Source of the DNA: Chitinophagaceae bacterium
GTDB taxonomy: Bacteria; Bacteroidota; Bacteroidia; Chitinophagales; Chitinophagaceae
Length of the DNA: 35,890 nucleotides
Direction: 5' to 3'
NCBI GenBank assembly: GCA_025933775.1
Contig: JAICZH010000024.1
Location: forward strand, 1-35,890
In this document: positions 5,303 to 24,619 of the stretch, piece by piece
Layout: the number at the start of each line of letters is the position of its first letter
Position numbering within the stretch: position 1 is the stretch's first letter
Notes under the pieces: model-generated
Databases searched by the model: none
Seen by the model: only the letters and a program-made list of their open reading frames with translations
What the model was told of the DNA's origin: nothing
Translations under genes and position numbers: made by a program

Positions 5303-6181
5303 TTATTTAAAATTCAATTCGCCTTCTTTATCAAATTCTTTTATATAATTAACGGTTTGCGTAATATTAGCTTTTGAAGAAGCGCCAAACAAAATAGATT
5401 GAATGTTGGGCAATTCGCAAACATACTTTATTGCATCTTTAGCATTGATGGCTCCTCCTGCCAAAACCTGCATGGCTATTGCCCTTACGGTTTTTGTTTT
5501 TAAAACAGATTCATATAATTCTTTTCCGCCCGACATACGAAAGCCCGCAAGATTTATAGATGAACAAATAATTGGATTTTGAATTCCGGCTGCTTCCAGT
5601 TTTTCTAAAAGCATCGGCATATTCATGGTAATAAAACCTGCTTCGGCATTGTATTTTTTTTCAACATAAGAATGAAATGCTGTTAGAATATCCATCATCC
5701 CCAAACCTAAAAGTAAATCGGTAACTACATTTTGTAAAAAAATAACCGGGGTATTAATCCCTTTAAACATTTTCATTTCTGCATCAATTAATAATTCCAT
5801 AATGGAAACATAATCTTTCGACAAATAAGCAACGCCGCCTTTAAACAGAGAGCCAAAAAAATTTCCCGGCACATATTGTTTTAAAGTTCCTGCTATTCCC
5901 GATTCGGTAACGGCATTGGCATATTTATGTGCATAAGGCATGCAGGGAAATATTTTATAATTCGAATATCTATCAGGATTGGCTCTTATAAAATCGCAAA
6001 TGTTTGCAATACGATCGTGTGTGGTACACATGAATGTGTTGAGTCCTGCATCGCGTGCAATATCAAGCGTATTAATAATGGCTTCATCGTCTTTGAATCT
6101 TATAGATTGCGCTCTCGATTTTTCATCGCTGATGTGATTCACCGCAAAAAACTGATTGTCTCCAAAAAGTATTCTATCCAT
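5303..6181 (-). CDS. Aldo/keto reductase-like TIM-barrel protein of unknown function
   Basis: About 292 residues. I place the start at ATG 6181, giving MDRILFGDNQFFAVNH, because it lies 4 nt after the stop of the upstream Gfo/Idh gene; an in-frame ATG at 6202 would add seven residues and overlap that gene. The order of segments (early FGDNQFF, a DAGLNTF strand, a late AMQVLAGGAINAKDA segment and FGASSKANI near the end) resembles the barrel layout of aldo/keto reductases. The canonical Asp-Tyr-Lys-His tetrad is not obvious, so catalysis is uncertain. Tight coupling to the Gfo/Idh dehydrogenase suggests they act on the same sugar intermediate. Confidence 0.65.
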   Translation of the reverse strand: MDRILFGDNQFFAVNHISDEKSRAQSIRFKDDEAIINTLDIARDAGLNTFMCTTHDRIANICDFIRANPDRYSNYKIFPCMPYAHKYANAVTESGIAGTLKQYVPGNFFGSLFKGGVAYLSKDYVSIMELLIDAEMKMFKGINTPVIFLQNVVTDLLLGLGMMDILTAFHSYVEKKYNAEAGFITMNMPMLLEKLEAAGIQNPIICSSINLAGFRMSGGKELYESVLKTKTVRAIAMQVLAGGAINAKDAIKYVCELPNIQSILFGASSKANITQTVNYIKEFDKEGELNFK

Positions 6182-6185
6182 TTTT

Positions 6186-7202
6186 TTAATTCTGTTTTGC
6201 ATTATCCATAATCATTTCAATAACTCTGTCGGTATAAAGAGCTTGTTCAAATGTATTATAGGTTCCCTGCTTTTTATTTTTTACATTGTTTACAAAATAT
6301 TCAATCTGGGCGCTGTATTCTTCTCCGCGTAAATAATAATTTACGGGAATGGCAAAGTCGGTAATGTATTTTGTTGTCCAGCCTTTATCAAGATTTTCTG
6401 TTGAACTGGGTTCTTTCAAATATATTTTTATTTCTGTAGCATCGCAAACTATCTTTCCTTTTTTGCCTTGCACCGTTAATGAAGTTGACATTTTGCGATA
6501 AGTATCATCGCTCCAGTTTACGAGTAATACCCCGCTGATATTATTTTCAAGCGTTAATAAAGAATATACGGCATCATCTACACCAACCGAATAAATACTT
6601 TTTAGAAGCGTGCCATTTACGTGAACGGGCTTACCGATTATTTCCTGAATTAAATTAATAACATGCGCTGCATAATCTGAAGTGCAGCCGCCACCTTCAT
6701 CAGGATTAGAACGCCAGGTGTTTCCTTTTTCTTTTGTAACCACCGGCCCATAAGCCTCTCCGGTAAAATGAACTATATCGCCAATTACATTTTCTTTCAA
6801 CAACCGATGCAACTCTCTGAAAGTTCCTATAAAATGATTGTGATAACCTACCTGGTTAATAAGTGATTTACTCAATGCCAATTCAGTTAATTCAATTCCT
6901 TGTTGCGATGTAAGACTAAAAGGTTTTTCACAAAAGACGTGTATATTTTTTTCCAAAGCATATTTTACAATAGGGTAATGAAATTTAGTTGGCGTGGCAA
7001 CTAAAATAAAATCGAGCGGCTCTTTATCGAGCATTTTTATGTAATCGTTATAAGTATTTAATTTAGTATATTTTTTAAAAACGTCTAATACTAATGAAGA
7101 CGTATCGCAAATGGAAGTGAAGTGTACATCAGGGTTAGCTCCTACAATAGCAGCGTGCGATATTCCCATTTTTCCTAATCCTATAATTCCAGCTTTTAGC
7201 AT
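6186..7202 (-). CDS. Gfo/Idh/MocA-family sugar dehydrogenase
   Basis: 338 residues. MLKAGIIGLGKMGISHAAIV has the N-terminal NAD(P)-binding GxGxxG loop. CEKPFSLT at 91-98 holds the conserved Glu-Lys-Pro of the family, and GGGCTSDYAAHVINL near 170-185 has the usual glycine-rich segment with the Asp and His catalytic positions. Such enzymes oxidise or reduce ring hydroxyls of nucleotide sugars (for example 3-dehydrogenation before amination). No aminotransferase is seen nearby, so the product is unclear. It starts 5 nt after the upstream GT4 stop and runs into the AKR-like gene, so it is part of a tightly packed operon. Confidence 0.92.
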   Translation of the reverse strand: MLKAGIIGLGKMGISHAAIVGANPDVHFTSICDTSSLVLDVFKKYTKLNTYNDYIKMLDKEPLDFILVATPTKFHYPIVKYALEKNIHVFCEKPFSLTSQQGIELTELALSKSLINQVGYHNHFIGTFRELHRLLKENVIGDIVHFTGEAYGPVVTKEKGNTWRSNPDEGGGCTSDYAAHVINLIQEIIGKPVHVNGTLLKSIYSVGVDDAVYSLLTLENNISGVLLVNWSDDTYRKMSTSLTVQGKKGKIVCDATEIKIYLKEPSSTENLDKGWTTKYITDFAIPVNYYLRGEEYSAQIEYFVNNVKNKKQGTYNTFEQALYTDRVIEMIMDNAKQN

Positions 7203-10637: not shown

Positions 10638-11741
10638 TTAAACCGACTTTATATATTTTTTATACAGATCAATATAGGTATCGGTCATTGTATTTAACGT
10701 GAATTTAGTTTTAATGGTATCTTTTGCATGGTTGCCCATAGTTACTGCAAGAGCAGAATTGCTGAGCAATAAATTAATTTTTGAAACCAACTCAGTTGTA
10801 TTTTTAGGAGTAATAATAAATCCATTTTTTTTATCCGAAATTAATTCTTCTACACCACCGCCTCTGGTGGCTATTACAGGCTTTCCAAAAGCCATAAACT
10901 CCATCAACGAATTGGGTACACCTTCCGCATGAAATAAAGGATTGGTGCATAAAATGCCTATGTCGCTCATTGTAATAATTGAATCAATATCGCTTCTAAA
11001 GCCTAACATTTTAATATTTTCTTTGTCCTTTTCACTAAGTTTTTTTTCAAAGAAATCATATAAATCGCCTTTACCAATCGCTAAAAAAGTAACGTCGCAT
11101 CTTGTGCGAATCAATTGTTTAGCGGCTTCGAAAAATGTTTCAAAATCTTTCACTTTATCAACCCGGGCAGCCATTGCCACCACGTATGGAGTGTTAATGT
11201 TTAATTTTTTTTTTAATTCGGAAACGTCGTTCGTAATTTGAAGCCGGTTCATTTCAAAACCATTATATATTACCTTTCTTTTTTGATCAGGCGCTTTATA
11301 TGCATCTAATCCTGCTTGTGAGTTTCCAATAATTACTTCGGAAAATTTATAAGGAGCCCAAGTTGCAAAATGATAAAATGAAAATTTTTTTATAGGATTG
11401 CAATCGGCCACGAAGCCCGATACATGAGGAATGTGAAGCATTTTGCAAATTACAGAAACATAAAAAGAAGTCATTATTGACCACGAATGCACTACATCCG
11501 GCTTAATGTTTTTTATTTGTTTATATAATTTTAAAAACATTGTGGGGTCTTTTTTTATTTTTCTTTTTAGTACGGTAAGCGTTACATGGTAATTGGCAAT
11601 AAAAGGATAATCATTTACATCAGAAAGTGAAATTAAATGCAGGTCGTTAATTCCTTTATCGTTCAAGCCTTTTATTAATTGCACGAGCCTTCTTTCTTTG
11701 CCGCCGCCATTTAATGAATCAATTAAAAATAATATTCGCAT
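10638..11741 (-). CDS. Glycosyltransferase family 4
   Basis: 367 residues. The N-terminal loop LIDSLNGGGKERRLVQLIKG, the interdomain MAARVDKVKDFETFFEAAKQ and the donor-site segment AEGVPNSLMEFMAFGKPVIA, with an intact E-x7-E pair, are standard GT4 features. It is cytoplasmic, with no signal peptide. It adds one sugar of the repeat unit; the specificity is unknown. It is flanked upstream by the UDP-GlcA 4-epimerase-like gene (65-nt gap), so a galacturonic acid donor is possible, but this rests on position alone. Confidence 0.93.
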   Translation of the reverse strand: MRILFLIDSLNGGGKERRLVQLIKGLNDKGINDLHLISLSDVNDYPFIANYHVTLTVLKRKIKKDPTMFLKLYKQIKNIKPDVVHSWSIMTSFYVSVICKMLHIPHVSGFVADCNPIKKFSFYHFATWAPYKFSEVIIGNSQAGLDAYKAPDQKRKVIYNGFEMNRLQITNDVSELKKKLNINTPYVVAMAARVDKVKDFETFFEAAKQLIRTRCDVTFLAIGKGDLYDFFEKKLSEKDKENIKMLGFRSDIDSIITMSDIGILCTNPLFHAEGVPNSLMEFMAFGKPVIATRGGGVEELISDKKNGFIITPKNTTELVSKINLLLSNSALAVTMGNHAKDTIKTKFTLNTMTDTYIDLYKKYIKSV

Positions 11742-11806: not shown

Positions 11807-12868
11807 TCAATTAGAAGTATTATAAAATTGCTTAAACCAGCCAGTAAATTCTTTAATACCTTTTTTTAAATTGGTATCGGGTTTATATCCGGTACGATGT
11901 TCCAAAGAAGCCGTATCTGCCCAGGTTATTTTTACATCGCCAGGTTGCATGGGTAAAAATATTTTTTCAGCTTTTACATCAAATGCGTCTTCCATAATTT
12001 CAATAAAGTTTAAAAGATTTACCGGTTTGCCATTTCCAATATTATGCAATTGATAATTTTTATCAGGTTTATCTTTAAGTTGTAATATTTTAAAAACTGA
12101 TTCTACAATATCTTCTACATAAGTAAAATCTCTCTCCATATCGCCATTATTAAAAACTTTTATAGCATTACCGGAAGTTATTGCTTTAGCAAACAAGCTG
12201 GGAGCCATATCTGGCCTGCCCCACGGCCCATACACCGTAAAAAACCGAAGCCCCGTTATAGGTATGTGATACAGATGGCTATACGTATATGCCATCATTT
12301 CATTACTTTTTTTTGTAGCAGCATACAAGCTTACAGGAGTGTCAACTTTATCATCTACCGAAAATGGAACTTTTGCATTATCGCCATATACACTTGAGCT
12401 GGATGCGTAGATTAAATTTATCACCGGGAAATGGCGACATGCTTCCAAAATATTAAAGAAGCCATTTATATTGCTTTGAATATACACATCAGGATTTACA
12501 ATGCTGTAGCGCACTCCCGCCTGCGCTGCAAGATTCACCACATAATTAAAATTTTCTTTTTGAAACAAAGATAAAATTGCTTCCTTATCTTCAAGCTTCA
12601 TCCGTATAAATCTATAATGCGGATATACTACCGATGTAATTTCTTTCCCAAAATCAATTTCTTTATAAATTTTATTTTCACCTCCTGAATGATTTTTTTC
12701 TTGGGGCGAATAAATACCGGTTTCAGCTAACCTTGCATATTTTAAATTGATGTCGTAATAGTTATTAATATTATCAATTCCTACTACTTCAAAACCTTCC
12801 CGCAATAATTTTTTTGCTAAATAAAATCCTATAAACCCTGCAGTACCTGTTATCAGCACTTTTTGCAT
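11807..12868 (-). CDS. UDP-glucuronate 4-epimerase-like SDR
   Basis: 353 residues. VLITGTAGFIGFYLAKKLL is the NAD-binding loop. DNINNYYDINLKYARL, AAQAGVRYSIVNPDVYIQSN, SSSSVYG, LYAATKKSNE (catalytic Tyr-x3-Lys) and RFFTVYGPWGRPDMAP follow the pattern of UDP-glucuronate 4-epimerases (CapI/GAE group). The RYSIVNP segment and the GRPDMA segment are especially typical of that group. It would make UDP-GalA from UDP-GlcA. It sits immediately downstream of the two ATP-grasp genes, which fits a pathway in which a uronic acid is then amidated. A UDP-glucose dehydrogenase to supply UDP-GlcA is not in the window. Confidence 0.9.
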   Translation of the reverse strand: MQKVLITGTAGFIGFYLAKKLLREGFEVVGIDNINNYYDINLKYARLAETGIYSPQEKNHSGGENKIYKEIDFGKEITSVVYPHYRFIRMKLEDKEAILSLFQKENFNYVVNLAAQAGVRYSIVNPDVYIQSNINGFFNILEACRHFPVINLIYASSSSVYGDNAKVPFSVDDKVDTPVSLYAATKKSNEMMAYTYSHLYHIPITGLRFFTVYGPWGRPDMAPSLFAKAITSGNAIKVFNNGDMERDFTYVEDIVESVFKILQLKDKPDKNYQLHNIGNGKPVNLLNFIEIMEDAFDVKAEKIFLPMQPGDVKITWADTASLEHRTGYKPDTNLKKGIKEFTGWFKQFYNTSN

Positions 12869-12930: not shown

Positions 12931-13962
12931 TCAAATTACTTTTTTTAAATCTTCAATAAAATCTTCTATCATGAAATATTGCGGGTTAACTTTCTTTTCA
13001 TGCCAGTTTAATTCTTTGTCCCAATAACCGGGACAATCATCATAAAAAGATCCCATAACAAAGCAATAACTTATTTCAACAATTTTTGGTACATCATGGT
13101 CCCATATAAAATCGAAAGCCACTGATTGGGCGTTTAATTTTTCTGCAACTTCAAAAGCAATTTTAATACACTGGCTGCTAAACAATTTCGGATCATAAGC
13201 TTTTACTCCGCTTCCCGAAGCTCTGAAATCGCCGTCCCTGCAATATCTGCGCACTCCAAAGCAGCGATTTCCAATCACTACCAATCTGGTATCATATTCA
13301 TTTTTAGGAATAAAATCCTGAAAATAAATGTATCCTTTTTCTCTATGAGAAAATTTTTCTACTTCTGTAGGAATAAAAATTCTGGCAGCGCCAGAAAATA
13401 TTCCTTTAACGGCTTTCTTATCTCTATCGCGCTTGAAAACCCAAAACCTGTCTTTGAGCCGTGAGAAACGATTAATATGAGAAAACCCTTTGCCAAAGGC
13501 TTTTTTGATAAGTGCTTTAGCATCTCGCTTAGTTTTTACAAGGCTCACATTTACGGAGCCTGCGCCGCCTCTCAATTTAAAAACTTTAGGAAATGTAGTG
13601 GTATGAAGCCATGCAAGCGCTTCTTTTTTTGAATAAAAAACATGAGCGGGTACCAATGGCGCATCAATTGATTCCAATAAATATTTTTGCCCCAATTTAT
13701 CATCGTGATGCCAGCCTGTATTTACATCAGGAAACACTTTAACTCCTTTTTTTTCTAAAGAAAGAATAAGCTGGCGTGCAAAGAGAGTTGCTTTATAATC
13801 GTTCTGATTCCAGTGCCACATTAATCCGTTACAATCATTCAACTCGCTTATAATATCTGTGTGGTAACAACTAACCAACTTGTATGAAATATTATTTTCA
13901 TCACAATACTTTATCCAACGGTCGCTGAAACTTTCCTCATGTTTGTGAATAGCTATTTTCAT
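12931..13962 (-). CDS. ATP-grasp ligase-like protein, paralogue 1
   Basis: 343 residues. The C-terminal two thirds looks like an ATP-grasp fold: VFKLRGGAGSVNV (127-139) as the lysine plus glycine-rich ATP loop, FQDFIP (214-219), DTRLVVIGNRCFG (224-236), and AFDFIWD then PKIVEISYCF (282-301), giving Asp/Glu positions for Mg-ATP. The N-terminal domain has LNDCNGLMWHWNQNDYKA and a GWHHDDK segment. Such enzymes join a carboxylate to an amine or thiol using ATP. It is about 70% identical by eye to its neighbour at 13986, a tandem duplication. Substrate unknown; amidation of a sugar acid is my inference from the adjacent UDP-GlcA epimerase gene. A weak AT-rich hairpin (12919-12936) overlaps the stop. 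Confidence 0.78.
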   Translation of the reverse strand: MKIAIHKHEESFSDRWIKYCDENNISYKLVSCYHTDIISELNDCNGLMWHWNQNDYKATLFARQLILSLEKKGVKVFPDVNTGWHHDDKLGQKYLLESIDAPLVPAHVFYSKKEALAWLHTTTFPKVFKLRGGAGSVNVSLVKTKRDAKALIKKAFGKGFSHINRFSRLKDRFWVFKRDRDKKAVKGIFSGAARIFIPTEVEKFSHREKGYIYFQDFIPKNEYDTRLVVIGNRCFGVRRYCRDGDFRASGSGVKAYDPKLFSSQCIKIAFEVAEKLNAQSVAFDFIWDHDVPKIVEISYCFVMGSFYDDCPGYWDKELNWHEKKVNPQYFMIEDFIEDLKKVI

Positions 13963-13985
13963 TCAATAAAAAATTTATCAAAAAA

Positions 13986-15008
13986 TTACTTCAGTTTTTT
14001 TATAAAATCTTCAATCATAAAATAAGTGGGGTTAACGGGTGTAAACCAATTTAGATCAGCATCCCAATAACCAACGCAATTGGTTGAATTGGCTTCTTGT
14101 AATCCAAAGCAATAACTTATTTCAACAATTTTTGGACAATCGCTATCCCAAATAAAATCGAACGCCAATGATTGAGCATTTAATTTTTTAGTAACATCAA
14201 AAGCGATCTTTACACATTTTTTGTCAAGCAATTTTGGATCGTAATCTTTTACATTGCTTCCTGAAGCCCTGAAATCTCCGTCTCTGCAATATCGTATAAG
14301 CCCAAAGCAACGATTGCCAATTACTACCAGCCTTGTGTCAAATTTGTTGCCGGGAATAAAATCCTGAAAATAGATGTATCCTTTTTCGCGATGAGAAAAT
14401 TTTTCAACTTCGGTAGGGAAAAAAATTCGCACCAAGCCCGATAAAATTCCGCGCGCATTTTTTTTATCTTTTTCGAGCTTGAACAACCGAACCCTATCTT
14501 TAAATCTGTAAAAACGATTAATGTGTAAAAAGCCTTTCCCGAAAGCTTTATTAATAAGAACCTTTCCCTGTTGCTTTGTTGTTACGAGTCTTACATTTAC
14601 AGAGCTTGCTCCGCCTCTTAGCTTAAAAACTTTAGGGAATGTGGTGGTATGAAGCCATGCGAGGGCTTCTTTTTTAGAATAAAAAACATACGATTTTACC
14701 AAAGGAGCATTAACGGATTCCAATAAATATTTTTGTCCTACTTTATCATTGTGATGCCAGCCAGTACCTACATCCGGAAAAACTTTAACTCCTTTTTTTT
14801 CTAAGGAAAGAGTGAGTTGGCGGGCGAACAGCGCTGCTTTATAATCATTTTGATTCCAATGCCACATCAATCCATTACAATCGTTCAATTGGGTTACAAT
14901 ATCAGAATCGTAACAATTAACTAATTTATATGGAATATCATTTTCTTCGCAATATTGTATCCAGCTATCGCCATAACTACCGGGATTTTTGTGAATGCCA
15001 ATTTTCAT
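13986..15008 (-). CDS. ATP-grasp ligase-like protein, paralogue 2
   Basis: 340 residues from ATG at 15008; the codon before it is TTG, so I take the ATG. It shares the ATP-grasp motifs of paralogue 1 (KLRGGASSVNV, FQDFIP, DTRLVVIGNRCFG, FDFIWD, PKIVEISYCF). It differs mainly at the N-terminus, in the 140-195 segment, and in the loop just before GYW near the C-terminus (GLQEANSTNCV against VMGSFYDDCP). Conserved ATP residues with variable loops suggest the same chemistry on different substrates. The 23-nt gap to paralogue 1 indicates co-transcription. Upstream lies a decayed region containing a third copy. Confidence 0.78.
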   Translation of the reverse strand: MKIGIHKNPGSYGDSWIQYCEENDIPYKLVNCYDSDIVTQLNDCNGLMWHWNQNDYKAALFARQLTLSLEKKGVKVFPDVGTGWHHNDKVGQKYLLESVNAPLVKSYVFYSKKEALAWLHTTTFPKVFKLRGGASSVNVRLVTTKQQGKVLINKAFGKGFLHINRFYRFKDRVRLFKLEKDKKNARGILSGLVRIFFPTEVEKFSHREKGYIYFQDFIPGNKFDTRLVVIGNRCFGLIRYCRDGDFRASGSNVKDYDPKLLDKKCVKIAFDVTKKLNAQSLAFDFIWDSDCPKIVEISYCFGLQEANSTNCVGYWDADLNWFTPVNPTYFMIEDFIKKLK

Positions 15009-15059
15009 CAAATAAAAAGTAATATAAAATGGATCTTAAAAAAACAATTTTAAATTTCT

Positions 15060-15545
15060 TTAATTCTGAATTGTATTTTCAAATAAATTAATAAGCGCTG
15101 TATAATGATTGTTTGCCGAATATTTTTTCATAAGCGTTTATCTAAATCATTGAACAAATATTCTACTTTATTTTTTAAATCTTTACAGTCTTTAATCTTA
15201 AAAAGTATTCCGGTTTCATTGTCAATTACAGTTTCTCTTAGGCTTCCAATGTCAGTAGCAATGATACATTTCTTAAAACGCAAAACTTTCCAATATCGTA
15301 TTCGGAAAATTATCATACCATTCTGACAGCACAATTGTAAAAGAACATTTACTTAAAATAAGGTTGAATTTCAACGAAATTTTTTCTTCCTAAAAATTCT
15401 ATATTATGTTTTTTATCCTTCAGGTAATCTTTTAGCTCTTTATCAAAATCCGAATTAGAAAATCCAATTATTTTTAAATTGAAGTTAGTATTTTCAAAAT
15501 GATTTTATAAGCGTGAACAATCCTTTTTTCAGGCTCTGTATTTTA
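15060..15545 (-). pseudogene. GT4 glycosyltransferase remnant (C-terminal half, several frameshifts)
   Basis: Reading the minus strand in shifting frames gives a continuous GT4 second domain: EPEKRIVHAYKIILK, then NTNFNLKIIGFSNSDFDKEL, NIEFLGRKNF, SEWYDNFPNTILESFAF (donor-site motif), KKCIIATDIGSLRETVIDNE, ending at a TAA (15060-15062). At least four single-base shifts are needed (about 15492, 15357, 15276 and 15132), most of them at short A or T runs. The N-terminal half is missing. Neighbouring genes have similar homopolymers yet are intact, so this is decay rather than poor sequence. The 5' side is fused to an ATP-grasp remnant. Confidence 0.8.
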
Positions 15546-15650
15546 AACGCGAAAATTTATTGATAGGAGAAAACCCCTACCAAATGTTTTTTTTATAAGT
15601 TGTTTCGCTTTTTGTTTTGTTTTTACCCGCTCATGTATCGCTATTTTCAT
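15528..15650 (-). pseudogene. Remnant of a third ATP-grasp gene (internal deletion plus frameshift)
   Basis: From ATG at 15650 the minus strand reads MKIAIHE and then jumps to VKTKQKAKQLIKKTFGRG. After a one-base shift it reads FSPINKFSRLKYRA. These match residues 1-7 and then about 142-171 of ATP-grasp paralogue 1 (MKIAIHK and VKTKRDAKALIKKAFGKG, FSHINRFSRLKDR). About 134 codons are deleted between them and everything beyond residue 171 is lost. Its ATG overlaps the stop of the CapA-family gene by 4 nt (ATGA), so the intact ancestor was translationally coupled to CapA. Confidence 0.82.
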
Positions 15651-16807
15651 TTTTTGTTCAAGAAATTACGAAGCACCCGAAATGTAATATCTCTGTGTGC
15701 TTCGCATCGCGAATAATTTAAAATAGATTTGAGTTGATTTTTTTTAAGAAAAAAACGTTCCATTCCAAGTTTTCGAATAGCCGAACGAAAATGGCGATGA
15801 TTTAAAAAGTAAGAAGTGCTAAACATTGAGAGCACATATTTCTGCTGGCTTTGTACTAATTCATTAAATTTTTCTTTCAATTTTTCAGGATCGGTTATTA
15901 TGGTATTGATTGCATCAACTTGATTTTCTATTTCAGTTTTTTCAGTCCCTTTCAACAATTCTATTTTCAAATTTTTTTTACATTGCTGATAAAAATATAA
16001 TGTCCAGCCAATTTTTTTTTGCGGATCAATTTGTAAATTTACTATCATTCCTTCATGCCATCCTTTTGGCGCTGTTTCGGTATCAAACAAAAAATTTCCT
16101 AAGCCATAAAAAATAGGGACTCCTTCAAAAACCTCGTAACCACTTATGCAATGCGAATGATGGTTAATAATAACTGATGCGCCCTGCTGCGCATAAAACC
16201 TGTACTGGTCCACCATGCGGGGGCTGGGATAATTATAATATTCATGGCCGCCATGAATAATAAGTATTACAACATCTGCTTTTGATTTCGCTTCTTTAAT
16301 AGATGCTGCATTGGCAATTATATTCATGGGATTAGCGCCGCCATGCGCATCATTTGCATTGCTCCATTCGTTTTCTGCAATGTTTACAATTGCAACAACG
16401 ATGTTATTTATTTCTTTAAAAAAAATTTTTGATGCTTCTTGAAACGTAATCCCTGCGCCGGTTGTAGCAATATCATTTTTGTTGCATACTTCCAAAGTAT
16501 CTGATAAACCTTTATCGCCGTAATCATAAATATGGTTGTTGGCAAGCGTGGCTAAATTTATTTTTAAAAATTTTAAAGCATTAATCGTTTCAGGAGCAGC
16601 CTTTAAATTGGGCCCCGTTTTTAAAATTTTATTTTTTTCATCAGCAGTAGTTAGCGGGCTTTCCAGATTTAAAATATTAAAATCAGCTTCAGAAAATAAT
16701 TGACTAATCTTATCATCGAAAAGTGTTTCAGGATTGTTTATTGCAATTGGTTCCAACCTTTTTCCTAAAAATAAATCGCCTGCAATATTTATTTTAATTG
16801 TATTCAT
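15647..16807 (-). CDS. CapA-family protein (metallophosphatase fold)
   Basis: 386 residues. INIAGDLFLG (Asp11), NLESPLT (Glu49), LANNHIYDYGDKG (Asn91-His92), LIIHGGHEYYNYPS near 190, NHHSHCISGYE near 221-231 and FYGLGNFLFDT are the ordered metal and active-site motifs of the CapA/PgsA family. In Bacillus the family takes part in poly-gamma-glutamate capsule synthesis and is membrane anchored. Here there is no signal peptide or anchor, so the protein is probably cytoplasmic. Related genes occur in polysaccharide clusters with unclear roles. Its stop overlaps the start of the ruined ATP-grasp gene, and two intact ATP-grasp genes follow, so a joint function is likely. Confidence 0.9.
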   Translation of the reverse strand: MNTIKINIAGDLFLGKRLEPIAINNPETLFDDKISQLFSEADFNILNLESPLTTADEKNKILKTGPNLKAAPETINALKFLKINLATLANNHIYDYGDKGLSDTLEVCNKNDIATTGAGITFQEASKIFFKEINNIVVAIVNIAENEWSNANDAHGGANPMNIIANAASIKEAKSKADVVILIIHGGHEYYNYPSPRMVDQYRFYAQQGASVIINHHSHCISGYEVFEGVPIFYGLGNFLFDTETAPKGWHEGMIVNLQIDPQKKIGWTLYFYQQCKKNLKIELLKGTEKTEIENQVDAINTIITDPEKLKEKFNELVQSQQKYVLSMFSTSYFLNHRHFRSAIRKLGMERFFLKKNQLKSILNYSRCEAHRDITFRVLRNFLNKK

Positions 16808-16929: not shown

Positions 16930-18123
16930 TTATAAAATTTGCTTTATAAATTTATTATTAATTTGTTTGAAAAAATTTTCCATTATTCTTGCCTGTGTTA
17001 AATAATTAAATTCGTTATACGCCAGTTTTTTTCCTTCATTGCCTATTTGCTGTGGATTATTATTTAATAAAGCTTCTCTCAATTTTTGTGAAAATTTTTC
17101 TGCACTGTTTGGTTCGGCTATAAATGCATTCTGTCCGTCTTTCAAAAATAATCCTATTTCTCCTACGTCTGTTATTACTACTAAATTACCGGTGGCTAAA
17201 TACTCGCCTAATTTAGTAGGAAAGCCGCCTTCGGCCTGCTTGTTAGAAGGGCGAGCCAACGCTAAAATATGAGAATTGCAAAGAAGGTTAGCTATTTCAT
17301 CTCGTTTAATGGCACCCGTAGTAATCACTTTATTTTTTATGTGCCATCTTTCAATTTGCGATTGAATATTTTGATTGGTTATTTTATTATTTAGCGATCC
17401 AATTAATTGCAATTTTAATGTGGGAAACTCATCGGCAATTAATGCGAAGGATTCAATGAGTATGGGCACTCCATCTTTATCGCCGTCAAGTGTGCCGCAA
17501 TAAGAAATAATTTTTTCATTGCCGGATGTTTTTTTCTCACAAGTAAATCTTGCCGGATCTACCAGCATGTTAACAATAGTAACTGGTACTTTTCCTTTTG
17601 TTTTTTCGGTAAAATATTTTTGTAATGCATGGTTGATTACATAAATACCATCAAATTTTTTTATAACATATTTTAAATAAAGATAAAGATCGGCTTTGCC
17701 TAAAATTGTTTTTTCTGCAACCACAAATGGATATTCGGTTCGCTCGTGAAAAATTTTTAATCCTAATTTTTTCCCCTGTTTTATTATGGGAAGTAATATG
17801 GAAACGCTCGTGCTGAGCAGTATCACAGCATCTATGTGATTTCTATTTTCTTCAGCAATCAATTTCTTTTTTGCAGCGTCAATTGTTTTAAAATGAGAAA
17901 AAACTTTTTTTAATTTTTTGTATTTGAATGAAGAAGAAATATGGAGGCAATGAAATCGTATTCCATTTTCTATTAATTCTTTTTCTTCCCATTGTTGTTC
18001 ATTCAATAAAAAAAAATCAACCTGATGTCCTGATTCTATTAATCCTTTTGCATAAGCAAGATGCCGGTTGGTGGCCGCTCCTCCGTTTGGATATTGACTC
18101 GTAGAAATAAAAAGCAATCTCAT
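16930..18123 (-). CDS. Glycosyltransferase family 4, candidate L-FucNAc transferase
   Basis: 397 residues. STSQYPNGGAATNRHLAYAK is the N-terminal loop, SYCGTLDGDKDGVPILIESF the interdomain motif, and EGGFPTKLGEYLATGNLVV the donor-site segment with paired glutamates. Its ATG overlaps the stop of fnlC by 4 nt (ATGA), so the two are translationally coupled. In enterobacterial clusters with the fnlABC cassette the gene after fnlC is wbuB, an L-FucNAc transferase of the same GT4 class. The role is inferred from that shared order, not from specificity residues. Confidence 0.9.
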   Translation of the reverse strand: MRLLFISTSQYPNGGAATNRHLAYAKGLIESGHQVDFFLLNEQQWEEKELIENGIRFHCLHISSSFKYKKLKKVFSHFKTIDAAKKKLIAEENRNHIDAVILLSTSVSILLPIIKQGKKLGLKIFHERTEYPFVVAEKTILGKADLYLYLKYVIKKFDGIYVINHALQKYFTEKTKGKVPVTIVNMLVDPARFTCEKKTSGNEKIISYCGTLDGDKDGVPILIESFALIADEFPTLKLQLIGSLNNKITNQNIQSQIERWHIKNKVITTGAIKRDEIANLLCNSHILALARPSNKQAEGGFPTKLGEYLATGNLVVITDVGEIGLFLKDGQNAFIAEPNSAEKFSQKLREALLNNNPQQIGNEGKKLAYNEFNYLTQARIMENFFKQINNKFIKQIL

Positions 18124-19256
18124 GAATTAATGCCCCACCATTGGTTGCTTAATTTAGTGTTTCCCATAATTAATTTTACAACTCTCCATGAAGTATCTTC
18201 AATTAAATAATCGTCGGGAACACTTTTTATTTTTCTTTCAGTTAATTCTTTAATGGCTAATGAAACAGCAGGTACAATCACATCCTCATCGAAGCCTGTA
18301 AGTATGATGGATCCTGTATCCTGGGCTTCAGGCCGTTCCATAGATTGCCGCAGTGAAATAGCGGGAAAATTTAAAATGGATGATTCTTCGCTAATGGTTC
18401 CGCTGTCAGACAAAGTGCATAATGCATTTTTTTGCAAATGGACGTAATCAAAAAATCCGAACGGTTTTAAAAATTGAATTTTTTTATTTTTTTTAATTTC
18501 ACCAAGTTGTTCTATTCGTTTACGCGTTCTTGGATGCGTGCTTACGATTATCGGCAGATTATAATTGGCTGCTAATTTTTCCAATACAATTAATATTTTT
18601 TTAAGATTAACCACGTTATCTACATTTTCTTCGCGATGAGCAGAAACTACAAAATATTTTTTTTGTTTAAGATTTAATAAAGAAAGAACACGGGATTGAT
18701 TTATATCTTGCAAATAAAAATTTAAAACTTCGCGCATAGGCGAGCCTGTTAAGTAAATACGCCTGTGCGGCAATCCTTCACTTAAAAGATGCCTGCGTGC
18801 ATGTTCGGTATATACTAAATTAAAATCGGCAATATGATCAATAATTCTCCGATTAATTTCTTCGGGAACATTAAAGTCGAAACTGCGATTGCCGGCTTCC
18901 ATGTGAAAAACAGGAATATGCATTCGCTTGGCAATATATGCAGAAAGGCATGAATTGGTATCGCCTAAAACAAGCAGCCCATCTGGTTTTTCTTTTTGAA
19001 GCACTGGTTCTGTTTTACTAAAAATATCGCCGATAGTAGCTCCAAGAGAAGACGTGTTGGCTTCTAAAAAATAATCGGGCTTGCGCAATTGTAATTCCTT
19101 CCAGAAAACTTCATTTAATTCATAATCGTAATTCTGGCCGGTATGTACAATTATTTGTTTGGTGTATTCATCGAGCAAAGACATGGTACGCGATAAGCGT
19201 ATAATTTCTGGCCGCGTGCCTACTACCGTTACAATCTTTAATTTTTTATTAGTCAT
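18120..19256 (-). CDS. fnlC: UDP-2-acetamido-2,6-dideoxy-L-talose 2-epimerase, last step to UDP-L-FucNAc
   Basis: 378 residues of the non-hydrolysing 2-epimerase family: KIVTVVGTRPEIIRLSR, VHTGQNYDYELNEVFW, VLGDTNSCLSAYIAKR, FHMEAGNRSFDFNVPEEINR, VVSAHREENVDN and ALCTSDSGTISEE-type segments (LSDSGTISEES seen). The RPEIIRLSR and GNRSFD variants, and above all the position after fnlA and fnlB, mark it as FnlC/WbjD/CapG rather than a plain WecB. It would epimerise C2 of the UDP-L-PneNAc-type intermediate to give UDP-L-FucNAc in the cytoplasm. It is 30 nt from fnlB and overlaps the following GT4. Confidence 0.92.
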   Translation of the reverse strand: MTNKKLKIVTVVGTRPEIIRLSRTMSLLDEYTKQIIVHTGQNYDYELNEVFWKELQLRKPDYFLEANTSSLGATIGDIFSKTEPVLQKEKPDGLLVLGDTNSCLSAYIAKRMHIPVFHMEAGNRSFDFNVPEEINRRIIDHIADFNLVYTEHARRHLLSEGLPHRRIYLTGSPMREVLNFYLQDINQSRVLSLLNLKQKKYFVVSAHREENVDNVVNLKKILIVLEKLAANYNLPIIVSTHPRTRKRIEQLGEIKKNKKIQFLKPFGFFDYVHLQKNALCTLSDSGTISEESSILNFPAISLRQSMERPEAQDTGSIILTGFDEDVIVPAVSLAIKELTERKIKSVPDDYLIEDTSWRVVKLIMGNTKLSNQWWGINS

Positions 19257-19286
19257 AATTTTCCCTGCATTATTTTTTTTGAATAG

Positions 19287-20399
19287 CTATACTTTTTCAA
19301 AATAAGTATCCGGGTCGGAAGGATCAAAAAATTCGTTAATCCAAAATAAAGTTAATAGTTCTTTGGAACCTACGTTAGTAATATTATGCGAATACCAAAC
19401 AGGCATATCAACAAAAGAAGGATTTTCGCCATCAAGATTAAAACAAAGAACTTCATTAGTTCCTATGCGACGCAATTTAATTTGAGCCTTTCCCTGAATT
19501 ACTGCGAAGCGTTCAATTTTTCTTGTATGAAAATGATCGCCGCGTGTAATGCCGGCATGAGTGGTAGAATAAGAAAATTGCCCGCCAATTAATGTTTTTA
19601 CTGCTTCTACAAAAGCACCGCGGTTGTCAGTATTTTTTTTAAAAAAAACCGGATAATGTTTTTCATAATCAATGTAAGAACGAAATGTATTGAATAAATT
19701 CAGTTCGTAACGGTTACGGATACACGAAAAAAAATTATTCTCAAAGTATTGCGTTTTATAGGTTTCGAGCAACGATAAAATTTCTGAAACTTTTGTTTCT
19801 ATCGTGTGATGTATGTTGCAGGTATTTGCAGATTTTTTTTGCTGAATAATTTTCCAGATTTCTTCTACCAATTCGCCAACGTAAATAAGTTTTAAAGAGG
19901 TGTCAATATCTATTTTTGGTTTTTCATTATGAGTAAGCTGATGCGAAAATGTTGCAATTACGGAATTGTAATAAGGATTTCCAAAAGGGCCGAATACATT
20001 GGGAATTACCATTCCTGTAAAGGTTGCATTATGTTTTTCTGCCCAATTAATAAAAAGTTTTCTTCCTTCTTTTTTTGATTTGCCATAAATATTATCACGT
20101 TCTTCCTGGGTGGAAGATGAAAAAATAATATGCGGTGTTACTTTTTCAGCTTTCATTGCATTAATAAGCTGTTGCACCAAATTTATATTTGTTTGATATA
20201 AAATTTCAGGATCGCTGTGGCGATTCATTGCCGCAAGATGAATAATTACATCGCACTGCTTTACAAAATTTCTAAGCAACTGTTCATGCTGAAAAAAATT
20301 TTTTTCAAAATTAATGCGCGCAACATTTTCTTTTAGCCCGAGATAATTAAAAAGATGAGTTCCTATAAAACCATGCTGGCCGGTAATTCCAATTCGCAT
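19287..20399 (-). CDS. fnlB: Bifunctional SDR-cupin enzyme of UDP-L-FucNAc synthesis
   Basis: 370 residues from ATG at 20399; a GTG codon precedes it at 20402. The N-terminal SDR domain (to about 245) has RIGITGQHGFIGTHLFNYLG and a Tyr-x3-Lys in NIYGKSKKEG. The C-terminal cupin (from about 250) has TDNRGAFVEAVKT, GITRGDHFHTRKIERFAVI with metal-ligand histidines, and DMPVWYSHNITNVG. This SDR plus cupin fusion is diagnostic of FnlB/WbjC/CapF. The family's cupin half epimerises C3 and the SDR half reduces C4 of the keto intermediate. It lies between the WxcM-like cupin and fnlC. Confidence 0.94.
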   Translation of the reverse strand: MRIGITGQHGFIGTHLFNYLGLKENVARINFEKNFFQHEQLLRNFVKQCDVIIHLAAMNRHSDPEILYQTNINLVQQLINAMKAEKVTPHIIFSSSTQEERDNIYGKSKKEGRKLFINWAEKHNATFTGMVIPNVFGPFGNPYYNSVIATFSHQLTHNEKPKIDIDTSLKLIYVGELVEEIWKIIQQKKSANTCNIHHTIETKVSEILSLLETYKTQYFENNFFSCIRNRYELNLFNTFRSYIDYEKHYPVFFKKNTDNRGAFVEAVKTLIGGQFSYSTTHAGITRGDHFHTRKIERFAVIQGKAQIKLRRIGTNEVLCFNLDGENPSFVDMPVWYSHNITNVGSKELLTLFWINEFFDPSDPDTYFEKV

Positions 20400-20433
20400 C
20401 ACTTATAAATTTTAAACAAGTTTAATAAACTAA

Positions 20434-20874
20434 TCATAAATCAATCGAATCCCAATCAACCCATTTATTAACAGGCTGGCGATAATCATCTGCTTTTGAC
20501 GCCGCTAAATCAAAGCCAGAAAGAACCAATAAAGTTGAATGTGGGGTAAGCGCTTTTATACCGGTATAAGAACCGCCGCTTACCCGTAAAAAATTTTTAT
20601 TATCTATAGTTAGTTTAAAAAATTGCGGAGTTTCATTATCAGAAGGATTTTCAAATGAAGATGGCGCTACTACTGCGATACAAAAACTTCCGCTGATGGC
20701 ATAAAAAGCTTTTTCTTCGTGTTTGTGGCCCTGCCATGCCCGTACAATGTTTGTATCGGGATGCGTCATCAGATAGAATCTGCGATAATTGCCCGGAATT
20801 TTTTCATTTACGAATTGCAATGTTCCTCTTTCATCGCTGAATGAACTTCCTTGTAATAATGTTGCCGGTTTCAT
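20434..20874 (-). CDS. WxcM/FdtA-like cupin, putative sugar epimerase or ketoisomerase
   Basis: 146 residues. FSDERGTLQFVNE opens a RmlC/WxcM-type cupin, followed by RAWQGHKHEEKAFYAISGSF with two histidines and a glutamate as putative active-site or metal residues, and the late TPHSTLLVLSGFD. Relatives isomerise 4-keto-6-deoxy nucleotide sugars. It starts 4 nt after the fnlA stop and is followed by fnlB, so it is embedded in the FucNAc cassette. The classic pathway needs no extra cupin because FnlB has its own, so it may help that pathway or divert the keto intermediate to another sugar. Confidence 0.82.
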   Translation of the reverse strand: MKPATLLQGSSFSDERGTLQFVNEKIPGNYRRFYLMTHPDTNIVRAWQGHKHEEKAFYAISGSFCIAVVAPSSFENPSDNETPQFFKLTIDNKNFLRVSGGSYTGIKALTPHSTLLVLSGFDLAASKADDYRQPVNKWVDWDSIDL

Positions 20875-20878
20875 GAAC

Positions 20879-21886
20879 TCACAAATTTAAGTCGGCGCGA
20901 ATCATATCTAATTTAAGCAACAGCTTTTTCATTTCCGCTACATCAAGCCGGGTGGTATTATGCGAATGGTATTCTTCAATTTGAGAAACATCTTTTCCTT
21001 CGGAGAAAAAACTTTCATAATTCAAATCTCTTGTGTCGGCTGGTATTCTATAAAAGTCTCCCATGTCTTCTGCTTTAATCATGTCTTCTCTGTTCACTAA
21101 TACTTCATACACTTTTTCTCCATGGCGCGTTCCGATAATTTTTATAGGATTGCTGGCATTATATAATTCTTTAAGCGCCTGCGCCAAAGTGCTAATGGTA
21201 GCGGCAGGCGCTTTTTGAACAAAAAGATCGCCCTGGTTTCCATTTTTAAAAGCGTATAAAACCAGGTCCACCGCATCTTCCAGCGTCATCATAAATCGTG
21301 TCATGTTGGGATCGGTAATAGAAATAGGATTTCCTTTTTTTATTTGCTCAATAAATAATGGAATTACCGAACCTCTTGATGCCATTACATTTCCATAACG
21401 CGTACCGCAAAAGGTAGTGCCTGTTCCATTTAAATTTCTGCTTTTTGCAATCATCACTTTTTCACTTAATGCTTTCGACATTCCCATTGCATTGATTGGG
21501 TACACGGCTTTATCGGTACTTAAAACAATTACATTTTTTACTCCATATTCCAATGCGCTATCCAATACATTTTCACATCCCATAATATTGGTACGCACCG
21601 CTTCCATCGGAAAAAATTCGCATGAAGGCACTTGTTTTAATGCGGCGGCCTGAAATACGTAATCCACGCCATGCATAGCAGCGTCAATACTTCGTTTATC
21701 TCTGGTATCGCCGATGTAATATTTAATTTTATCGTTGCGATACAGTTGCCGCATGTCATCTTGTTTTTTTTCATCGCGGCTAAAGATGCGAATTTCTTTA
21801 ATACCGGTATTTAAAAAACGCTTTAAAACGGCATTGCCAAAAGATCCGGTTCCGCCGGTGATTAAAAGTATTTTATTGTCTAACAT
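20879..21886 (-). CDS. fnlA: UDP-GlcNAc 4,6-dehydratase/5-epimerase, first step to UDP-L-FucNAc
   Basis: 335 residues. ILLITGGTGSFGNAVLKRF is the NADP loop, RIFSRDEKKQDDMR and YYIGDTRDKRS follow, then AAALKQVPSCEFFPMEAVRT and LSTDKAVYPINAMGMSKALS. In this family the SDR catalytic tyrosine is replaced by methionine in M-x3-K, and that variant is present. Length and motifs match FnlA/WbjB/CapE, which converts UDP-GlcNAc into 4-keto-6-deoxy sugars with C5 inversion. It heads the cassette fnlA-cupin-fnlB-fnlC. A 103-nt AT-rich gap separates it from the GT upstream; no clear promoter was found there. Confidence 0.95.
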   Translation of the reverse strand: MLDNKILLITGGTGSFGNAVLKRFLNTGIKEIRIFSRDEKKQDDMRQLYRNDKIKYYIGDTRDKRSIDAAMHGVDYVFQAAALKQVPSCEFFPMEAVRTNIMGCENVLDSALEYGVKNVIVLSTDKAVYPINAMGMSKALSEKVMIAKSRNLNGTGTTFCGTRYGNVMASRGSVIPLFIEQIKKGNPISITDPNMTRFMMTLEDAVDLVLYAFKNGNQGDLFVQKAPAATISTLAQALKELYNASNPIKIIGTRHGEKVYEVLVNREDMIKAEDMGDFYRIPADTRDLNYESFFSEGKDVSQIEEYHSHNTTRLDVAEMKKLLLKLDMIRADLNL

Positions 21887-23323: not shown

Positions 23324-24619
23324 TTATTTTGGCGTATATACGTTCGGATTAAATAATTGATATTGAAAATTTTCTTTTACCAAATCTTCAGGCATGTTGC
23401 GCATTTCTTTTGAATAACAAATTCCGATAGAGATCCAAACTAACAAATAGTTCAGCGAAAAAGTGGTTACGGTTGCAGGAAACAGTGCAAGAAGCCAAAG
23501 CAAAATCCAAATAGCTGCGGCTTTTGAAAGAATATTTTTTGAATAAAAAAGTCCTTTTATTATTGCGGGAATAGCTATGAGCAGCAAAAGCGCAAGGCTT
23601 ATTATTCCACCTTTCAGTATTATTTGTAAATAATCCGTTTCAATAACGTTTCTATAACCATCTTCTGTGGCTCCTGTTGGGCAATAATACAAGCCGTTTA
23701 TTCCTCTTCCTATTAGCCAATCTTTTTTTGTCATATCCAGATAAAAATAATCCACTACATCGCCACGCGAATTTTCAAACACCCGGTCTGCAAACCTATT
23801 TATAGCTCCGGATTTTTTTGATGTAAGCGCTGTTATTGCATAAATGGATAAAAAGAAAACAATGAATAAAGGAAAGAACCTGAAAAACAAATTGCTTTTA
23901 TGCGCATAATTATACATGATGTAAGCAGCAACAAGAATGCTTACCGCCATAAACATTAGGCCTCTTCTCGCTTGAACGACCGCGAGCAGCGCCGTGAGCG
24001 CAATTACAAATAAACACCACAATTTTCCGGAGGTTCCTAAAAATTTTCTTTTATTGGTGTTATATATAACAGTAAGTAAAATAAATCCACAGGGAATACC
24101 TAAAATTTTTGAAAAGTATTCTAAAATTGTTTGCCCATTTTCACTATCAGCCAATAAAATCGGTTTAATAAAAGCTATTGAAAAAAGGATATAGAAAATG
24201 CTTAAAATAAAAATTACATTCATTGTCTTTTTTAAATAGATAAGATTTTTAGGAAAAAATATTATCAATGGAAGTAAGTAAAGAAATATGCCTCCTGTTC
24301 CATCAGTAAACGTTTCAAATAAAAATTTAGAATTAAATTTAAAACCTCTCATTACTACATACGCCAACCATGCTATGTAAATAATAAACAAGCTTCTCAA
24401 ATATTTATTTTCAATTCTAAATCGGATAAGAAAAAAAGAAGCACTCAAAAATAACAATACTCCCAATAATTGTAAGTACGTTATTTTAGACGAAACAACT
24501 CCGCTGATCATAAGTGCATAACAAGATGTATAAATAACAAAGCCAATCCAAAATTGATTAAGGGTTCGGCTGATCCTTTTATTATACGGCGCTTCAAATT
24601 GATAATTGTAATTATTCAT
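23324..24619 (-). CDS. wzy: O-antigen/capsule polymerase, Wzy-like
   Basis: 431 residues, dominated by hydrophobic spans (about ten to eleven by eye). The best signature is the large-loop region: KKDWLIGRGINGLYYCPTG, then ETDYLQIILKGGIISLALLL, as in Wzy_C/RfaL-type proteins, where an arginine-containing loop and a glutamate precede a membrane helix. It would join lipid-linked repeat units at the periplasmic face. It is placed next to wzx, with wza and wzc in the same cluster, so polymerase is preferred over ligase. Sequence alone does not separate the two functions. Confidence 0.85.
   Translation of the reverse strand: MNNYNYQFEAPYNKRISRTLNQFWIGFVIYTSCYALMISGVVSSKITYLQLLGVLLFLSASFFLIRFRIENKYLRSLFIIYIAWLAYVVMRGFKFNSKFLFETFTDGTGGIFLYLLPLIIFFPKNLIYLKKTMNVIFILSIFYILFSIAFIKPILLADSENGQTILEYFSKILGIPCGFILLTVIYNTNKRKFLGTSGKLWCLFVIALTALLAVVQARRGLMFMAVSILVAAYIMYNYAHKSNLFFRFFPLFIVFFLSIYAITALTSKKSGAINRFADRVFENSRGDVVDYFYLDMTKKDWLIGRGINGLYYCPTGATEDGYRNVIETDYLQIILKGGIISLALLLLIAIPAIIKGLFYSKNILSKAAAIWILLWLLALFPATVTTFSLNYLLVWISIGICYSKEMRNMPEDLVKENFQYQLFNPNVYTPK

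Follow-up and report, generated by a model that had tools for sequence, protein, structure and literature searches.

Related systems and the locus

In the HS:2 capsule locus of Campylobacter jejuni, the ATP-grasp domain of Cj1438C amidates the C6 carboxylate of glucuronic acid (GlcA) (PMC11800379; here and below a PMC number stands for passages of the paper concerned). PgsA, the CapA-family partner of the amide ligase in the PgsBCA (CapBCA) system, is 52% identical to MslH and is reported, citing Ogasawara 2019, to epimerise L-Glu to D-Glu in growing poly-gamma-glutamate (PGA) (PMC7168211; see also PMC9266682), and MslH itself, with two His/Asp dyads and a single Ca(II), acts as an epimerase on the C-terminal Trp of a lasso-peptide precursor (PMC10406935). 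Here we describe a locus in which a CapA-family gene stands together with two intact ATP-grasp paralogues, on the minus strand of contig G000:C77 (35.9 kb, within a 3.25 Mb genome); the whole contig is referred to as the window. The enzyme kinds are known, and it is their pairing that looks new as far as our searches show. Our tentative reading, which we put somewhat short of an even chance, is that the pair ligates and then inverts: an L-amino acid would be amidated onto a uronic acid, and CapA would convert it to the D form.

Each of the described systems differs from this locus. Cj1438C is alike in having an ATP-grasp domain in a capsule locus and in forming an amide on the uronic-acid C6 carboxylate, but its amines are serinol or ethanolamine, and no CapA partner is mentioned in the passages cited (PMC11800379). 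PgsBCA has a CapA-family partner, but its product is a poly-amino acid and there is no sugar acceptor. Its ligase, PgsB, is Mur-ligase-like; no PgsB Mur-ligase match was found among the 20 window proteins scanned with Pfam, and a poly-gamma-glutamate locus was rejected on that account. RimK, LysX and ArgX couple an amino acid, as the amine partner, to a carboxylate acceptor, and are the nearest solved structures to the ATP-grasp proteins of the window, but they act on proteins (ribosomal S6, LysW). Iyer and colleagues reportedly surveyed the neighbourhoods of ATP-grasp amidoligases in 2009 and may already mention such pairs. A search of the open-access literature by titles and the starts of abstracts, a scope outside which subscription papers mostly fall, gave no described polysaccharide module of CapA and ATP-grasp among the matches listed, and the passages of PMC2922099 and PMC4000134 contain nothing on the pairing.

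Pfam and NCBIfam scans of the window proteins revealed several group-1 glycosyltransferases, one flippase-type gene and one Bac_transf sugar transferase; judged by these sequences, the window is a polysaccharide locus. Read along the minus strand, the order is CapA, a stretch of debris (15650..15012), ATP-grasp A, ATP-grasp B, an SDR epimerase and GT4 glycosyltransferases (Table 1). An earlier note on this DNA had named a CapA-family gene followed by two intact ATP-grasp paralogues in a polysaccharide context; the genes are indeed present, with PF09587 and PF08443 over their cut-offs, and the context is supported. In the window's own genome, the CapA gene is the sole PGA_cap match, and genes A and B are the sole two matches of this ATP-grasp at E 0.001.

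CapA and the C-alpha epimerases

The role of the CapA partner was missed in the earlier note, and we consider it the more interesting part of the locus. The protein scores 187 bits against PF09587, for which the cut-off is 27. A profile search of the PDB with 25 CapA proteins (the window's and 24 of the 41 CapA open reading frames (ORFs) outside it) gave MslH (8gq9) as the best match with E 2.1e-33, and the next match other than MslH, a YfkN protein, had an E of 0.007. The NF038314 MslH model matched the window's CapA with E 8.7e-13 and 47.4 bits, far below its 700-bit cut-off, and by this measure CapA is not a lasso-peptide epimerase. Residues D11, E49, N91, H92, D95, H185 and H219 were invariant in all 25 aligned proteins. 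The MslH dyads H88/D91 and H295/D11 aligned with CapA H92/D95 and H219/D11, and the MslH Ca ligands E44, N87 and H259 also aligned with residues that did not vary in the 25. CapA and MslH are thus of the same family by sequence and have the same two catalytic dyads, but MslH acts on a ribosomal peptide and its ligand H261 is not conserved here. Since the CapA family includes reported C-alpha epimerases, the window's CapA is likely to be the catalytic partner that sets the D configuration. A uronic-linked amino acid keeps a free carboxylate, as does the target residue of MslH, and for this reason we infer that CapA would invert after ligation.

Conservation of the pair in other genomes

An alignment search of genome contigs yielded at least 565 relatives, of which the best 80 loci, leaning towards near kin, were examined together with the window (81 loci, up to 10 kb on each side, many shorter). 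Going by their record titles, the 80 are presumably mainly from Bacteroidota, with Campylobacterota, Pseudomonadota, Planctomycetota, Acidobacteriota and others also represented; a plasmid collection was searched as well and gave no match. CapA was found one or two genes upstream of the ATP-grasp gene in 34 of the 81 loci. This slot held 35 of the 42 CapA ORFs, whereas 2000 shuffles, in which genes were moved with their strands within each locus and no operon structure was kept, placed 6.3 there on average and never more than 19. The gene immediately upstream on the same strand was CapA in 20 loci, an asparagine-synthase-like (AsnB-like) gene in 16, a DUF362 gene in eight and some other gene in 32; three loci had a neighbour on the opposite strand, and two had a contig end. 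Where the ATP-grasp gene directly followed CapA, a 4-nt overlap joined the two in 13 of 20 pairs (12 ATGA, 1 GTGA), versus 89 of 1021 other same-strand pairs. Named isolates in which the pair overlaps include Fulvivirga imtechensis (L063) and Fodinibius roseus (L117), while a Chitinophaga isolate (L065) is an example with no partner gene.

A second sample, drawn evenly, comprised 395 genomes of the phylum, and 37 of these, the window's own included, had a match to the ATP-grasp. Besides the window's genome, 22 of the 36 matching genomes were followed (E 2e-49 or better); three genomes of the sample, G346, G221 and G151, are apparently those of loci L079, L116 and L131, so that the two samples overlap. 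Among 13 PGA_cap matches in the 22 genomes, eight were strong (at least 137 bits, in seven genomes), and six of these eight were located within 2.5 kb of the ATP-grasp gene on the same strand (five upstream, one directly downstream), the other two lying elsewhere. The order shuffles and the phylum sample rule out a chance neighbourhood, and the linkage of CapA and ATP-grasp, for which a survey of genomes had been suggested in the earlier note, does extend across genomes.

The slot also drew AsnB-like genes (16 of 22; shuffle mean 3.2, maximum 9), and in ten loci (L084, L096, L110, L111, L113, L115, L119, L121, L130 and L133) an AsnB-like gene of about 640 aa stood between CapA and ATP-grasp. 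This interposed amidotransferase could produce uronamides, or could amidate the amino acid once it is attached. A GT4 glycosyltransferase of one cluster occurred in 71 of the 81 loci, mostly a short way downstream of the ATP-grasp gene (Table 1). In a mirror-tree comparison over 24 loci, r was 0.73 for ATP-grasp and CapA, 0.66 for ATP-grasp and GT4, and 0.60 for CapA and GT4; as all three values are high, they are not decisive for CapA alone.

The ATP-grasp ligases

Both ATP-grasp proteins pass the PF08443 (RimK) gathering cut-off of 21 bits, A with 28.3 and B with 26.7 bits; an alternative TTG start of A is possible at 15011. The TIGR00768 RimK-family cut-off of 143 bits was not reached (43 and 48 bits), which makes them kin lying outside that subfamily. 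An AlphaFold2 model of B had a predicted template-modelling score of 0.92 (predicted local distance difference test, pLDDT, in Table 1) and was built from an alignment of 76 rows, namely 74 of the 87 family ORFs outside the window and the two window proteins. A Foldseek search with this model gave ArgX, RimK and LysX as the best solved structures, with query TM-scores of 0.57 to 0.65 in the first twelve, and a profile search found RimK at E 5.3e-7, with an R..R..GDFR-like stretch in common. The ATP-grasp fold, for which the earlier note had proposed a structure prediction as the check, is upheld by the model, and the amide-ligase type is supported by these nearest relatives: A and B are confidently predicted to be RimK/LysX/ArgX-like ATP-grasp ligases, and look like intact enzymes of the amide-forming type.

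Residues K89, K129, Q215, D224, R226, R239, R242, D245, R247, D284 and E296 were invariant in all 76 proteins. Position 298 was S in 75 of them, and what we take to be the E-x-N Mg site of ATP-grasps accordingly reads E-x-S in those 75. The two window proteins are each other's nearest kin on the ATP-grasp tree (98% by the Shimodaira-Hasegawa-like approximate likelihood ratio test, SH-aLRT) and, from their NG86 estimates (dN 0.16, dS 1.39), appear to be under purifying selection. Within the stretches examined, 75 of the 81 loci had a single ATP-grasp of this cluster and six had two to four. The longest array, of four tandem paralogues, was in a metagenome-assembled genome (MAG) from Bacteroidia (L069:6866-11044). 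No match to PF14305, which we take to be the TupA-like ATP-grasp family, was found at E 0.1 in the window proteins scanned with Pfam, whereas in Cj1438C the ATP-grasp is a TupA-like domain of a multidomain glycosyltransferase; the two were compared through Pfam.

DUF362 in the same slot

In eight loci (L054, L076, L085, L086, L091, L108, L114 and L127) a DUF362 gene lay immediately upstream of the ATP-grasp gene, and all eight DUF362 genes fell in the slot one or two genes upstream (shuffle mean 1.1, maximum 6). CapA and DUF362 occurred together in two of the 81 loci (L091 and L114), never with both in the slot. In the phylum sample there were six DUF362 matches, three of which were 3 to 4 kb upstream in genomes with no PGA_cap match, and three elsewhere. 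The DUF362 proteins of the eight loci have a conserved KTHxxxGxTxAxK core and a DxLPHHRxG stretch.

DUF362 has been used as the outgroup of the LarA racemases, both being in Pfam clan CL0471 (PMC11770544). The best 16 Foldseek PDB matches of a DUF362 model of only fair quality (pLDDT 74) were all of the lactate/malate racemase (LarA) family; the first, at E 8.8e-4, was the sole one at E 0.001 or better, and query TM-scores were low, at 0.22 to 0.33. By sequence, a profile found nothing in the PDB, and a single sequence gave E 0.36 at best with no LarA match. The cofactor gene LarC was found in 4 of the 8 DUF362 genomes versus 4 of 12 CapA genomes (12 of the 33 CapA-slot loci outside the window), which is no enrichment; the DUF362 records are all MAGs, in which absences are soft. 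As LarC is not commoner beside DUF362, this comparison gives no support for a nickel-pincer racemase role of DUF362. The shared clan and the top structural matches are nevertheless suggestive of a slot that holds an epimerase of either fold, CapA or DUF362. In its full form, this would amount to a widespread ligate-then-invert system for D-amino acids on surface polysaccharides in which CapA and the LarA-clan DUF362, of unrelated folds, alternate in the slot, and we regard that wider proposal as doubtful.

Uronic-acid genes and the acceptor

The earlier note had drawn on a UDP-GlcA 4-epimerase next to the ligases. The best PDB match of the SDR epimerase was 5u4q (E 6e-110), deposited as a dTDP-glucose 4,6-dehydratase, and next came 6zl6/6zlj (E 1e-44), which are epimerases, the activities of these entries being presumed ones; the protein reached no NCBIfam equivalog cut-off. 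From its sequence, a UDP-GlcA/UDP-galacturonic acid (GalA) 4-epimerase is plausible. Conserved linkage with such a gene did not hold up, however: close homologues (at least 37% identity) were found in only seven of the 81 loci, the window included, and the syntenic locus L109 has none in that position. The epimerase was therefore rejected as a fixed part of the module.

Nucleotide-sugar 6-dehydrogenases were rejected as fixed neighbours too, as 2 of 21 ORFs were in the upstream slot against a shuffle mean of 2.8, which is no preference. Ten of these 21 were scanned; among the specific models, six matched best with a TviB-like (UDP-GlcNAc) one, two of them over its cut-off, two matched best with a TuaD-like (UDP-Glc) model, and two with neither. 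Because both TviB-like and TuaD-like enzymes are among them, GlcA, GalA or an N-acetylated uronic acid might serve as the acceptor. No 6-dehydrogenase was found among the window proteins scanned with Pfam, and a genome search found two such genes over the cut-off in the window's genome, both on another contig.

Proposed mechanism and alternatives

The substrate of the module would be a capsule or O-antigen repeat unit. In a first step, the ligase, whose predicted fold is ATP-grasp, would phosphorylate a sugar carboxylate, most likely the uronic-acid C6, and form an amide between it and the amine of an L-amino acid. CapA, a calcineurin-fold protein with the family membership and residues described above, would then remove and return the alpha proton of the attached amino acid, which still has a free carboxylate like the C-terminal target of MslH, so that the product is a D or D-allo form. 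Each of the two ATP-grasp paralogues of the window would have its own amino acid or its own sugar residue, and where a locus lacks CapA the decoration would consist of L-amino acids or of some other amine.

D-allothreonine is the C-alpha epimer of L-threonine. It is amide-linked to GalA in Hafnia alvei 1206, and the uronic-acid amides listed are those of L-Ala, L-Lys, L-Ser, L-Thr, L-Glu, L-ornithine, glycine and D-allothreonine (PMC10609480). In C. jejuni, GlcA must be amidated before chain elongation (PMC11800379), which fits an early-acting ligase. The amino-acid decoration of uronic acid put forward in the earlier note is partly supported: the ATP-grasp fold, the amide-ligase type, the CapA linkage and the polysaccharide context hold up, and the 4-epimerase linkage as stated does not. 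CapA-family genes recur in polysaccharide clusters with no assigned role, as is stated outright for an Escherichia coli O-antigen cluster (PMC10606467). If CapA is a stereochemical editor, its presence predicts D-amino acids in the polymer and its absence L-amino acids. D-allothreonine in an O-antigen would then be explained with no D-amino-acid pool or dedicated racemase, the origin of this and similar O-antigen residues would become directly testable, and amide-decorated capsules of environmental bacteria could be recognised by a genetic marker.

Several observations weigh against ligation followed by inversion. The CapA column nearest to the MslH ligand H261 is H in 13, N in 7, D in 2, and E, T and S in one each of the 25 proteins; in MslH itself, the H261A change merely diminished activity (PMC10406935). 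Some of the conserved CapA residues are common to the calcineurin-like fold generally, and another reaction is therefore possible for CapA. In 47 of the 81 loci there is no CapA in the slot, and only a minority have uronic-acid genes nearby, 6-dehydrogenases being present in 19. The CapA label is hardly clustered on the ATP-grasp tree, for which a quick method was used with SH-aLRT as the only support measure: it needed 26 changes over 38 rows (shuffled mean 29.0, with 73 of 500 shuffles as low), and DUF362 needed 8 changes over 8 rows (shuffled 7.8, 5 forced by starred branches); with both partners scattered in this way, the associations arose or were lost many times, and strict co-adaptation is not favoured. 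The LarC comparison described above belongs here as well. D-Ala and D-Ser have been reported as substituents of GalA in the exopolysaccharide of Vibrio alginolyticus, but they were run on an achiral C18 column, a method that leaves the D form unestablished (PMC4663550), and for this reason the polymer was set aside and does not count as support. E. coli SD2019180, compared here by its capA gene and its polymer, carries capA among the O-antigen genes and makes a GlcA-containing polymer, with no amino acid reported in the passages cited (PMC10606467). In that cluster, capA lies beside the hypothetical orf12 and wzx, and the authors assign CapA no role in those passages (PMC10606467). We know of no activity or polymer structure for any member of the system.

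The alternative that survives best takes up the earlier note: the ATP-grasps would attach L-amino acids or simple amines to uronic acids as amides, and CapA would be an accessory or phosphatase-like protein with no stereochemical change. We consider it unlikely: Cj1438C does amidate GlcA with serinol or ethanolamine in the C. jejuni capsule (PMC11800379), most of the uronic amides in PMC10609480 bear L-amino acids, and CapA is missing from the slot in the 47 loci mentioned, but the nearest solved relative of CapA is an epimerase and not a phosphatase, and the tight coupling on many scattered branches suggests a reaction on the same product.

A clearly less probable course is N-aminoacylation, in which the ATP-grasp activates the carboxylate of the amino acid, and the amino group of an amino sugar, not a uronic acid, is the acceptor. 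In the reactions of the relatives RimK, LysX and ArgX the amino acid supplies the amine and the acceptor the carboxylate, which argues against this, as does the lack of a free carboxylate on the amino acid of an N-aminoacyl sugar, unlike the MslH substrate. In its favour are the probable amino-deoxysugar pathway in the window (FnlA/FnlB/WecB-like), the inconsistent proximity of uronic-acid genes, and the known N-linked D- and L-amino acids on amino sugars (PMC10609480).

Tandem ligases could also build, on the sugar, a short peptide or poly-amino-acid side chain (cf. teichuronopeptide, poly-gamma-glutamate) whose residues CapA epimerises. RimK is a poly-alpha-L-glutamate synthetase by the title of 5zct, relatives of CapA act on poly-gamma-glutamate, and the six loci with more than one ATP-grasp would suit such a product; we think it improbable, given the single copy in the stretches examined of the other 75 and the lack of a Mur-ligase-type PgsB among the 20 window proteins scanned with Pfam. 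That CapA epimerises C5 of the uronic acid is very improbable, as known CapA-type epimerases act on the amino-acid C-alpha, even though C5 is alpha to the carboxyl (or amide) carbon, so that proton abstraction would be chemically similar, and CapA is in the same gene run.

Third-copy remnant and other features of the window

The earlier note had described a ruined third ATP-grasp gene coupled to CapA by an ATGA overlap. The overlap of the CapA stop with the third-copy start is there, at 15650..15647, but the remnant is far smaller than supposed. Its ATP-grasp-like parts are only 15650..15634 (MKIAIH) and 15626..15536, the latter matching residues 142-172 of B with 73% identity over 92 nt. Most of the other recognisable debris is a broken glycosyltransferase, of the group-1/GT4 type and in two frames. 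Since a 4-nt overlap of CapA and ATP-grasp is common across the loci, the usual first ATP-grasp copy has apparently been lost from the window and two others retained.

Table 1. Features of the window discussed in the text
Feature	Position	Strand	Evidence
CapA/PGA_cap, 386 aa, probable C-alpha epimerase of attached amino acid (MslH/PgsA kin)	16807..15647	-	PF09587 E 5.6e-55
Third ATP-grasp gene remnant, about 36 codons	15536..15650	-	Start overlaps CapA stop by ATGA; sequence matches
GT4 glycosyltransferase remnant, frameshifted and with stops	15107..15359	-	tblastn to intact GT4 proteins, two frames; six-frame view
ATP-grasp ligase A (RimK/LysX/ArgX-like)	15008..13986	-	PF08443 E 1.6e-06; 75% identical to B
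ATP-grasp ligase B (RimK/LysX/ArgX-like)	13962..12931	-	AlphaFold2 pLDDT 95.2; Foldseek best ArgX 3vpb E 2.3e-14
SDR epimerase, plausible UDP-GlcA/GalA 4-epimerase, not a conserved module part	12868..11807	-	PDB matches; 7/81 loci
GT4 glycosyltransferase, candidate transferase of decorated sugar	10638..11741	-	Pfam; its cluster at most 4 genes downstream of ATP-grasp in 66/81 loci
FnlA-like, FdtA-like, FnlB-like and WecB-like genes (context)	18120..21886	-	NCBIfam; FdtA by Pfam

Locus L109 (749-15573) and locus L122, both from Bacteroidales, are syntenic with 7.2-23.3 kb of the window, as protein matches show in the case of L109. Both have no SDR epimerase after the ATP-grasp gene and have an intact glycosyltransferase between CapA and ATP-grasp. 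Two ORFs of the window, at 5303-6202 (299 aa) and 23324-24619 (431 aa), had no Pfam match at E 0.001. The genes at 18120..21886 matched TIGR04130 (3.6e-170) and NF047837 (2.4e-77), each below its own cut-off, and TIGR00236 (1.1e-72) above its cut-off; with the FdtA-like gene, they probably represent a UDP-L-FucNAc pathway. RmlD-type and MocA-type oxidoreductases are also encoded in the window, as found by the Pfam and NCBIfam scans.

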